The notes beneath the pieces were generated by a model. The model searched no databases. It was not told the origin of the DNA and worked only from the letters and a program-made list of their open reading frames with translations. A program made the translations under genes and the position numbers. Shown in pieces: positions 19,897-23,527 of a stretch of 31,259 nucleotides of DNA. Positions within the stretch are counted from its first letter, which is position 1. Each line of letters begins with the position of its first letter. Origin of the DNA: a virus; IMG/VR virus record IMGVR_UViG_3300005563_000321, positions 1 through 31,259 of that record; one strand, written 5' to 3'.

Positions 19897-20050
19897 CTTC
19901 GCCCTCGTCGTTCGTGTGCGAATGAAACTCGCGGTCATGCTCCGCAGCGCCACGATTGGCCCACTGCAACAGCATCGGTTCGCCACCGCCAACACCACAG
20001 GGAACGCACCGCCACTCGGCCAGGACTACCTCGATGACTTCGGCGCTCAT
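19889..20050 (-). CDS. 53-residue putative zinc-binding protein
   Basis: Runs from ATG 20050, overlapping the stop of the gene upstream, to TGA 19889. The sequence has a CVPC pair followed later by HDREFHSH, a possible C2H2-type metal site (WRCVPCGVGGGEPML, then AEHDREFHSHTND). It is not assigned to a family. Confidence 0.65.
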   Translation of the reverse strand: MSAEVIEVVLAEWRCVPCGVGGGEPMLLQWANRGAAEHDREFHSHTNDEGEDA

Positions 20051-20337
20051 CGGAGGTTGCCGGTGAGTGCGTGGAGGATGTGGCCGCGCGAGATGACGGC
20101 GGTCAGTGCGAGCTCGGACGACAACTCGCTGCGGAGTGTCACGATCGCGGTATCGGTGAGTGCCGGCCAGTTGAAGAAGTGGGCGTTACGTCGATACGCC
20201 TCGCACATGTCCTCATCCGACATCGCACCCCGCACGTACAGGGAGAGGATGTGCTGCTTGGCTTGGTCGCGGATATCGCCTTGCGGACCACGCGCCAACA
20301 CCACCGCATGGGTGAACAGATCATCAGTGATCGTCAT
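20047..20337 (-). CDS. 96-residue hypothetical protein
   Basis: Starts ATG at 20337 with AAGGAG nine bases upstream. It is the first gene after the terminator at 20361-20402, so early transcripts must pass that terminator or start anew. The product is helical: AKQHILSLYVRGAMSDEDMC, then YRRNAHFFNWPALTDTAIVT. It is not recognised. Confidence 0.7.
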   Translation of the reverse strand: MTITDDLFTHAVVLARGPQGDIRDQAKQHILSLYVRGAMSDEDMCEAYRRNAHFFNWPALTDTAIVTLRSELSSELALTAVISRGHILHALTGNLR

Positions 20338-20360
20338 ACTTGCTGCTCCTTAGAACGAAC

Positions 20361-20402
20361 GAAAATGCCCCGACAGGGATTCGGGCGTCAACCTGTCGGG
20401 GC
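20361..20402 (-). terminator. Strong intrinsic terminator in early region
   Basis: An 11-bp perfect stem (GCCCCGACAGG with CCTGTCGGGGC) with a 14-base loop, followed on the minus strand by ATTTTCG. It lies 24 bases ahead of the gene at 20337 and directly downstream of the tRNA-like element. Confidence 0.8.
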
Positions 20403-20409
20403 CTGCGGG

Positions 20410-20631
20410 CTATTGCGTATCCCGCATTGTGCTCGGGCGGGGAGTCGAACCCACACCTACGACCATCCGAGCAACCGGTCCTCCTACTTCTGCTCCCCGT
20501 GTGCGCGGATCAGCAGAGCGTGTGGCGCTGACCCCTCGCACGTAACGGGATCGCGTCATAGACCGAAAGTTTTGAGCCCACACCATGCGGTCTCGTTTGC
20601 AGCCGGGACATACCGGTCTGACTTTCAGCAT
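20410..20631 (-). CDS. Possible 73-residue protein with CxxC (doubtful)
   Basis: A frame from ATG 20631 with GAGGGG upstream. The first 20 residues (MLKVRPVCPGCKRDRMVWAQ) look like a zinc-binding start. The C-terminal half is low-complexity (VARMVVGVGSTPRPST) and overlaps the tRNA-like element, so the full length may not be real. I rate it as uncertain; a structured RNA is an alternative explanation of the same bases. Confidence 0.3.
   Translation of the reverse strand: MLKVRPVCPGCKRDRMVWAQNFRSMTRSRYVRGVSATRSADPRTRGAEVGGPVARMVVGVGSTPRPSTMRDTQ
20430..20473 (-). ncRNA. tRNA-like acceptor/T-arm minihelix
   Basis: The minus strand has a 7-bp closing stem TGCTCGG with CCGAGCA. Inside it is a T-arm mimic: GGG, the loop TTCGACT with the invariant TTCGA, and CCC, extended by further pairs with one bulge. 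The D and anticodon arms are absent; nine bases join the two helices. No complete tRNA can be folded from the flanks. It lies 28 bases upstream of the terminator and could mark a 3' end for tRNA-processing enzymes or mimic tRNA. Confidence 0.45.
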
Positions 20632-20824
20632 TTGCGCCCCTCACCCGGCCACTACACCGAGATCCCAACGCACCATCTATTTTGCGAGCAACGCTTTCTG
20701 GAACCGGCAATACCGCCTACTACGGCGGCCCCGAGTGGGGATCGGATTTCGCGATGCTCTATGAAGTTGTGATCCGGGCGAGTGAGGGGATCCTGCTGGG
20801 GGAACAGCACCCGCCCGGAAGTAG

Positions 20825-21790: not shown

Positions 21791-22741
21791 GTGGCCCTCT
21801 ACCTACTCTCAAGCATGGACTGGGAGCAAACGCTCTCGGACTACGCGACTCATCAACGCGCCGCGCGACTCTCAGAAAAGACGATCAGGAACCGTGAAGA
21901 GTGCCTACGACTCGTCGCAAGAGTTTCCCGCCGCGGCCCCGACCAGGTAACGCTCAACGACCTCGAGCGGACCCTGGCTAGACGCCACCCCCGAACCGGT
22001 CTCCCACTCGCGGCCGGCACGTTGCAGTCCGAGCGCTCATACATGCAGAGCTTCTTCACATGGATGAAGAAGACGAAACGTCGCCGCGATAACCCGGCGA
22101 AGGATCTGCCCAAGGTGAAAGTGCCGCGCCGCAAACCGCGACCCCTGCGCCTGGATCAGATCGAAGACGTACTCGACTGCGGCATCTACACGCGTACCCG
22201 CGACATCATCCTCATCGCCGCATTCACCGGACTACGCATCGGTGAAGTGGTCAAGATTCGGGGCGAAGACGTCGACCTCCGCGCCATGACCATCAAGTCG
22301 ATTCGTAAAGGCAACCTCGACTGGGAAGGCACACTCAACACAGCCCTGCTCGACATTGCGAAACGATACCCACGCACCGGTTGGTGGTTCCCGTCCCCCT
22401 ACGCCAACGAGAAGTTCCCAGACGGCGGCGGCCACATCCTCATGGCGTCCGCATCCGACCGTGTATCGAAGGCCATCCGTGCGGCCGGGATCACGGATAC
22501 CAGAATCACCGGTCACTCGATCCGACACTACGCCGCTACCGAGATGATCCGCCGTGGTGCATCCATCCGAGCTGTCCAAGAGTTCCTAGGCCACGCATCC
22601 CTCGCGACCACTCAGTTGTACGCAGAGGTCACCCTGGACGACATGCGCGCCGCGAACGACGTCCTCCCGACGATCATCGCACCGGCACACGCGAACCGGA
22701 AACCACGGACAATCGCCACGTCTGAGATACTGGCCGCTTAG
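21791..22741 (+). CDS. int: Tyrosine integrase
   Basis: A 316-residue phage integrase. An N-terminal SAM-like core-binding domain (residues 10-95) is followed by the catalytic set R149 (TGLRIGEV), K173 (RKGN), H242 and R245 (GHSIRHYAAT), H268 (FLGHAS) and nucleophile Y277. The start is GTG 21791 after a G-rich site, with ATG 21815 as a shorter choice. Its TAG stop shares its G with the first base of the tRNA-Lys gene, so attP most likely lies in that tRNA. It catalyses integration and, with an excisionase, excision. Confidence 0.95.
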   Translation: MALYLLSSMDWEQTLSDYATHQRAARLSEKTIRNREECLRLVARVSRRGPDQVTLNDLERTLARRHPRTGLPLAAGTLQSERSYMQSFFTWMKKTKRRRDNPAKDLPKVKVPRRKPRPLRLDQIEDVLDCGIYTRTRDIILIAAFTGLRIGEVVKIRGEDVDLRAMTIKSIRKGNLDWEGTLNTALLDIAKRYPRTGWWFPSPYANEKFPDGGGHILMASASDRVSKAIRAAGITDTRITGHSIRHYAATEMIRRGASIRAVQEFLGHASLATTQLYAEVTLDDMRAANDVLPTIIAPAHANRKPRTIATSEILAA

Positions 22742-22813
22742 CCCCTGTAGCTCAGTTGGTAGAGCAGCGTCCTTTTAAGTCGCGGGTCCCCGGTTCGAGA
22801 CCGGGCGGGGGCA
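22741..22813 (+). tRNA. tRNA-Lys (anticodon UUU), probable attP region
   Basis: A complete cloverleaf of 73 bases: acceptor GCCCCTG with CGGGGGC (one T-G pair), D arm GCTC with GAGC, anticodon loop CTTTTAA, T arm CCCGG-TTCGAGA-CCGGG and discriminator A. The CCA is not encoded. The anticodon stem GCGTC with GTCGC has one T-T mismatch. The gene fits exactly between the integrase stop (shared G) and the SGNH stop codon at 22814. It is either a phage tRNA or, more likely, a copy of the host target gene used for integration. Confidence 0.92.
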
Positions 22814-23527
22814 CTACCGGTGGGTGGGTTGTCCGAGCGAAAGAATCACCGGCCCCAGAACTCCCGCCGCGATCTGCTGACCCGCGTTGTTCGGGTGTGT
22901 CGGGTCGTTCACGGGGTCACGTTGGTATCCGGGAAGGAAGCTGCCATCATCCGCACGGATGGCCGCGTAGGGGTCGACGAACGTCCATCCCTTCTGTGTC
23001 GCGTGAGTCCTCAGGGCGGCGTTGTAGTCGAGGGTCGCGGCAGCCCACGCGGGAACGTTTGATGGGGCGATGGCTGACACGAGGACGTGCACGCCTGCGG
23101 GGGCGGCTGCTGCAAGGCGGTCCCATTGGGTGAGGCAGTTGTGCCAGTCGACGCCTTGTGCGATGTCGTTGGTGCATCCCATTACGACGATGGTGTTGAC
23201 GGTGGGGATGCCGCGTGCGAGGGCGGTGTCTACGATCTGATCCGACCGCAACCCGACTTGGAATGCGCCGGAGTCGAACGTGATGTGCTTGTCGGTGATG
23301 TACACGGTCCACGAGTTCATGGGTGCCCAGCCTGCGGTGATCGAGTCGCCGTATGCGGCGTAGGTGACCGGTGCGATGCGGACTGGGGCGGGCTGTGTGG
23401 TGAACGTAGCAGTAGGTGTGAGCGTGTTGGGGGATGCTGTGGCTTCGATTCCTGCGAGCGCCAGAGCGGTTGCGGTGAGGGCTGTGGTGAGTAAGACGAG
23501 TCCGATTGTTGCCGGGGTACGCTGCAT
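22814..23527 (-). CDS. Secreted SGNH/GDSL esterase
   Basis: A 237-residue protein with an N-terminal signal or anchor (about residues 8-28, LVLLTTALTATALALAGIEA). It has SGNH blocks: YGDSITAG near residue 58 with the catalytic Ser, the GCTNDI block with Asn near 118, and DPTHPNNAG with D208 and H211. It would cleave an ester, such as acetyl groups on peptidoglycan or mycolyl-type lipids. It lies beyond the terminator that closes the lysis genes, next to the tRNA. It may be a lysogenic-conversion gene or aid release. It starts ATG 23527 with AAGGAT upstream. Confidence 0.9.
   Translation of the reverse strand: MQRTPATIGLVLLTTALTATALALAGIEATASPNTLTPTATFTTQPAPVRIAPVTYAAYGDSITAGWAPMNSWTVYITDKHITFDSGAFQVGLRSDQIVDTALARGIPTVNTIVVMGCTNDIAQGVDWHNCLTQWDRLAAAAPAGVHVLVSAIAPSNVPAWAAATLDYNAALRTHATQKGWTFVDPYAAIRADDGSFLPGYQRDPVNDPTHPNNAGQQIAAGVLGPVILSLGQPTHR

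Follow-up and report, generated by a model that had tools for sequence, protein, structure and literature searches.

The window analysed here, a virus record of 31,259 bases, raises the question of what is carried by a gap (positions 20338–20824) in its leftward early unit. This unit consists of a promoter-like site, an excisionase-like gene, two small ORFs, the gap and a gene of 96 amino acids. The promoter-like site upstream of the unit (21278–21250) agrees with the prediction that the gap lies downstream of an early promoter, but it is weak, since its chance expectation is 0.7. The 96-aa gene (20047–20337, minus strand) is an ORF preceded by the Shine-Dalgarno (SD)-like sequence AAGGAG, and has a 71% identical relative in contig L253. 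Elsewhere in the window, a full tRNA-Lys(TTT) gene (22741–22814), possibly part of the attachment site, shares its first base with the end of the integrase ORF. A hydrolase of the GDSL/SGNH type (Pfam E 3e-16) is encoded on the minus strand at 22814–23527.

The gap had been described as lacking a good gene, and this was borne out: no conserved gene was found on the minus strand. Neither ARAGORN nor Rfam called an RNA in it. The original prediction had set codon-like conservation of the frame at 20410–20631 against an RNA; this frame is broken by a TGA in L253 and by an indel in L023, has no relative in phages and no PHROG or Pfam match, and was rejected as a gene. Another frame, at 20484–20610, reads ANETAWCGL...HALLIRAHGEQ in the window, L023 and L253, with several synonymous changes. 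It contains an internal UGA in the window, the usual start is absent in the window and L253, and a search gave no credible relative. Either gene decay or chance may account for this frame.

Three contigs related to the window locus were found (L023, L253 and L263), and a scan with a 27-nt leader pattern yielded no additional contig. The structures of the window locus all lie on the minus strand. A three-way-junction-like leader domain (20475–20566) was obtained with RNAalifold from the window, L023 and L253, and is located directly upstream of a tRNA-like minihelix. About 50 nt of this domain are almost invariant in L023 and L253. What had been described as several stable hairpins is a conserved domain, with few covarying pairs among only three sequences. 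A UAG stop codon (20484–20486), identified by sequence and alignment, ends the short frame 10–11 nt before the acceptor stem of the minihelix.

Two stem-loops follow the minihelix. The first (UGCGGG/CCCGCA, 20404–20426), identified by folding and alignment, starts 3 nt after C74 and is also found in L023 and L263. The second (20367–20402), with 11 bp, is the one originally called a strong terminator. It is a stable hairpin in folds and alignments, and its stem covaries in L023, L263 and L253 (GACAGG/CCTGTC versus GGCAGG/CCTGCC). A U-tract is absent behind the hairpin, however, both in the window (CATTTTCG) and in the relatives (CATTTCAC, CATTCTCG and CATCTTCG).

The slot of the minihelix is occupied differently in two of the relatives. 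In L263, whose excisionase is 97% identical to that of the window, the slot holds a full tRNA-Thr (66.7 bits), behind which the stem-loops and the downstream gene are those of the window locus. In L253 (2680–2920), a different structured, GC-rich RNA of about 240 nt lies between the same leader and the terminator-like hairpin, with no Rfam match at gathering score.

The minihelix and its family

The minihelix (20429–20473, minus strand) was identified by cmsearch, by its homologues and by covariation in the family to which it belongs. It consists of an acceptor 5' strand (20473–20467), a linker AUGGUCGUAG (20466–20457), a T-arm with the loop UUCGACU (20449–20443) and an acceptor 3' strand (20436–20430), followed by C74 at 20429. 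It scores 56.7 bits against the family model (E 7e-14, cmsearch with filters off), and DNA 85–90% identical to it lies between genes of other phages, in stretches without annotation. The predicted acceptor/T-arm mimic with a TTCGA loop is thus present as a conserved element. The T-stem of the window copy carries an extra U (20453) and folds poorly alone: the isolated fold is no better than that of shuffled sequences (z -0.88), and the case for the window minihelix consequently rests on its relatives and not on its fold. The bulged U may weaken the window copy. In the close relative L023 the T-stem has no bulge and the pairing is kept. The minihelix is not matched as a tRNA gene by ARAGORN or by any Rfam family, and the window holds no second copy, the next-best model match having an E-value of 0.7 (filters off).

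Members of the family share a common plan: an acceptor of 5–7 bp, a linker of 8–12 nt that contains GG and replaces the D and anticodon arms, and a T-arm whose loop is UUCRANU. Type A, to which the window copy belongs, has an acceptor of 6–7 bp, the linker AUGGUCGNA, a 6-bp T-stem and usually the loop UUCGACU, followed by R73 and C74. Type B has an acceptor of 5 bp, the linker ACUGGCAGACA, a 6-bp T-stem and the loop UUCRAGU, followed by A73 and C74; its stack is 11 bp compared with 12 in tRNA. Other linkers (AGUGGCACACA, ACCGGCAGACA, AACGGUUUUCG, AAUGGCAUACA, AACGGUUCACC and small D-hairpins whose loop contains GG) were seen in Cafasso, VanLee, Zenon, Endor2 and Sujidade. Since the linker and part of the T-loop were prescribed by the search patterns, the constancy of these is partly by construction; the stems, R73 and C74 were left free. 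A looser descriptor required the T-loop UUCRA, a T-stem, a perfect acceptor and GG in the linker; the GG in every linker it accepted is hence a requirement of the descriptor.

Covariation with related phages had been proposed as a check beforehand, and both stems covary strongly across the family. The covariation score of type A is 0.741 with 92.5% of cells paired (controls at most 0.124 when slid and 0.158 when shuffled), and that of type B is 0.645 with 99.3% (controls at most 0.166 and 0.160, respectively). At the 3' end, R73 is found in 109 and C74 in 116 of 118 elements, and C75 in only 3, so that the RCCA favoured by RNase P lacks C75 and A76. The element is the top half of a tRNA, a covarying acceptor stacked on a T-arm with a UUCRANU loop.

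A distant blastn search with the gap matched only about 50 bases, which are the minihelix, in unannotated DNA of the Gordonia phages MakoManhole, Cafasso, Aleemily, ObLaDi and Morgana and the Streptomyces phage Dagobah. A short query added the Gordonia phages VanLee and Trine, mycobacteriophages and the Corynebacterium phage StAB, and pattern scans of IMG/VR gave many more elements, including some on AT-rich contigs. With the E limit set laxly at 10, the type B consensus matched 806 places in 220 phage records, ordinary tRNAs being among the weakest of these matches. The strong type B matches listed are in unannotated DNA, mostly of Streptomyces phages (Sujidade, Endor1/2, phiCAM and Joe), the others being in Konstantine, Predator, Zenon and further mycobacteriophages. 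Searched as whole records, Zenon contains 12 model matches, Endor2 nine, Saftant eight, Sujidade seven and Konstantine five. Outside the training set, a Riemerella phage (E 4e-10) and the halovirus HRTV-14 (E 2e-5) were matched; HF1 and HHTV-2 are weaker, being recognised by eye, by blastn and as marginal model matches only. Related elements are carried by phages whose hosts are Gordonia, Mycobacterium, Streptomyces, Corynebacterium and Riemerella, as well as by haloarchaeal viruses, with up to about 12 copies per genome.

A chromosomal bacterial element was considered and rejected. Type A matches were present in only 6 of the 396 actinobacterial genomes searched, which argues that the family is mainly a phage trait. 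Most matches of a wide pattern in genomes were of 22 bases and were taken collectively to be ordinary tRNAs. An annotated tRNA-Arg in Endor2 (44378–44460; L336:8379–8461) covers one element and extends into the upstream gene; this annotation is probably false.

Position of the elements between genes

Simple greedy gene calling proved unreliable on unannotated GC-rich contigs, and adjacency to stops and starts, together with annotated phages, was used instead. In six annotated actinophages (Endor2, Sujidade, Zenon, Konstantine, Cafasso and VanLee) the descriptor matched in 46 out of 57 early-operon gaps of 70–320 nt, compared with none in 5,700 shuffled gaps and none in 458 coding 100-mers. The median element in these phages starts 8.5 nt after a stop codon and ends 45 nt before the next start. 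Among 118 elements, 42% of those of type A and 74% of those of type B have the stop codon of an ORF of at least 60 codons 4–9 nt upstream of the acceptor, whereas the controls gave 2.5% at random positions and 4% on the antisense strand. The elements thus lie at gene borders and on the same strand as the genes, which is the placement of the t-elements of plant mitochondria. The flanking genes differ in kind, indicating an element that is not specific to any one of them.

A second stem-loop is usual between the acceptor and the SD sequence, starting 2–5 nt past the acceptor. Its mean z is -1.6, with z below -1 in 30 of 39 cases. Some type B elements are followed within about 20 nt by a promoter-like TTGACA (e.g. 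L285:320–360 and L289:12600–12640).

Three of 30 elements in an earlier set from annotated phages overlap an annotated gene (Trine 40 and Journey13 74), and in Trine one more copy runs across the start annotated for gene 40. The annotated starts of these two genes cover elements (L258:6007 and L259:2995). That of Trine gene 40 looks misplaced, since a better start comes after the third element. Quasi-repeat spacers of GGCNNGGCNNGG adjoin tandem elements at L002:2790–3000 and L258:6050–6230 and in L016, L022, L117 and L126.

Possible functions

A role as a cut site is proposed for the minihelix. It would be an intergenic, tRNA-shaped element of the mRNA that marks points at which RNase P and RNase Z separate phage mRNAs, and from the sequence comparisons we give this reading a probability of roughly 0.6. 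The GG of the linker would dock on the T-loop and rebuild the tRNA elbow, as the GG of the D-loop does in tRNA. Host RNase P would then cut at the 5' end of the acceptor, with the single-stranded nucleotides between stop codon and acceptor as leader, and RNase Z or another 3' tRNA nuclease would cut after N73. In RNase P, the protein is known to touch leader nucleotides -8 to -3 and the RNA component to base-pair with the 3' RCC (PMC11143913, PMC12710915). The upstream mRNA would be left ending a few nucleotides beyond its own stop codon, and the downstream mRNA would begin with a 5'-proximal stem-loop, which may be protective. The genes of an early operon would in this way be separated by enzymes of the host, comparable to tRNA punctuation in mitochondria.

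This reading is suggested by the exchange for a tRNA in L263, by the kept end letters of tRNA and by the fit of the positions of stop codon and stem-loop. Covariation, placement between genes and rarity in chromosomes are also consistent with it. Points against it are the absence of C75 and A76, the 11-bp stack of type B, the bulged window copy, the different RNA in the slot of L253 and the letters partly fixed by the search patterns. The TTGACA after some type B elements also counts against it, since a cut there would serve the upstream mRNA only. The original prediction of a noncoding RNA processed by tRNA enzymes survives in its enzymes: acceptor stem, T-loop, linker GG, R73 and C74 are kept and L263 has exchanged the element for tRNA-Thr, which makes processing by tRNA enzymes the best-supported reading of the sequences. 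The element itself appears as a repeated part of mRNAs, not as a single noncoding RNA. More tentatively, and with the odds slightly against it, viruses of bacteria and archaea might share a general, as yet undescribed punctuation system, in which anticodon-less tRNA mimics behind stop codons are cut by the tRNA-maturing enzymes present in every host, stem-loops protect the new 5' ends, and most genes of early operons give rise to separate, protected mRNAs.

The stop codon very near the element, the kept R73 and C74, and the promoter-like DNA that follows some elements in place of an operon gene would also fit trimming of the 3' side only, by RNase Z with CCA addition. The minihelix would then stay on the end of the upstream mRNA, protecting it or aiding its translation, in the manner of the tRNA-like ends of plant-virus RNAs. 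We consider this unlikely, because the stem-loop right after the acceptor suits protection of the downstream piece and a full tRNA in the same slot, as in L263, would be cut on both sides.

The minimal top half of tRNA is bound by several tRNA enzymes, and with many copies per genome, freed minihelices could act in trans by titrating some factor of the host or a defence nuclease directed at tRNA. Such a decoy is very unlikely, however: the position behind stop codons, the presence in gaps throughout the operon and the variable stems favour a role in cis, and the element has no anticodon.

It is scarcely probable that the tRNA shape acts in translation, by recruiting or recycling ribosomes or by coupling neighbouring genes through a bound synthetase or ribosomal protein. 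The tight spacing to the stop codon would suit such a role, as would an AUG 1–2 nt past the acceptor in L032, L037, L065, L131 and L092, but most downstream starts in annotated phages lie about 45 nt further on, as a rule with an SD-like sequence in front of them. Readthrough of the stop codon was rejected, since stop-to-start distances are not constant modulo 3.

The full tRNA-Thr in L263, the integrase and tRNA-Lys near the locus and the bulged stem of the window copy could be taken as signs of a functionless relic, either of a tRNA gene or of an attachment site. This is hardly credible for the family, whose strong covariation across unrelated phages and many copies per phage show selection on the RNA. 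The close relative L023 keeps the pairing; decay may apply to the window copy alone.

Finally, the put-like antitermination RNA of the original prediction, or a transcription terminator, could be placed in an early-strand leader with stable stem-loops after it, but it found no support and is highly improbable, because the hairpin has no U-tract in any of four related sequences, the family occupies most early-operon gaps, behind stop codons and up to about 12 times per genome, and the tRNA signature would be left unexplained.

Novelty and relation to known systems

The statement in the original prediction that no described family has this layout agrees with our searches of Rfam and of the open literature. 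Rfam 15 gave nothing credible at gathering or relaxed thresholds, types A and B being silent at the gathering score, and the sole trace in Zenon was a 17-nt match to the T-arm of tmRNA, below threshold. A description of the family was not found in the open-licence literature. The RNA family appears to be undescribed in phages. As a cut site it would give a function to otherwise unexplained intergenic gaps of 80–100 nt in well-studied phages, and it would account for some false annotations of phage tRNAs.

To our knowledge, the control of amount and lifetime of each mRNA in long polycistronic early messages of phages is mostly unexplained outside a few models, e.g. T7. If most genes were separated by tRNA-shaped cut sites, this would offer a simple solution, and one that would work in hosts as far apart as Streptomyces, Riemerella and haloarchaea, since every host has enzymes that mature tRNAs.

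In T7, the early polycistronic mRNA is cut between genes at structured sites by host RNase III. The likeness is a host nuclease acting between phage genes, whereas the enzyme and the structure are different. Repeated intergenic sequences of phages and haloviruses have also been reported: those of HF2 are promoters, and the SAS/ESAS of cluster K are start-associated (PMC8707807, PMC7302621). These are DNA or start-associated motifs not described as tRNA-like RNA, and the HF2 repeats were rejected as the same element on the basis of their description as promoters.

Phage RNAs other than tRNAs are known as substrates of host RNase P, namely phage M3 RNA, the C4 antisense RNA of P1/P7 and the T4 gene 32 mRNA (PMC11143913). 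In contrast to the family described here, these are single cases with other structures, and not a repeated intergenic family with the T-loop of tRNA. Among plant RNA viruses, TYMV has a tRNA-like structure that ends its message and is a substrate of RNase P in vitro (PMC12710915). This structure has a pseudoknotted acceptor, is located at the 3' end of the genome and encodes CCA, whereas the present elements are intergenic, lack a pseudoknotted acceptor and have only C74.

The mechanism, as proposed, is nearest to tRNA punctuation in mitochondria. The t-elements of plant mitochondria and the punctuating tRNAs of animal mitochondria likewise place tRNA or tRNA-like shapes at gene borders, as the proposed cut sites of enzymes that separate mRNAs. 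The present family differs in that it occurs in DNA phages of bacteria and viruses of archaea, lacks the anticodon arm and is present in many copies, with cleavage as the proposed step.
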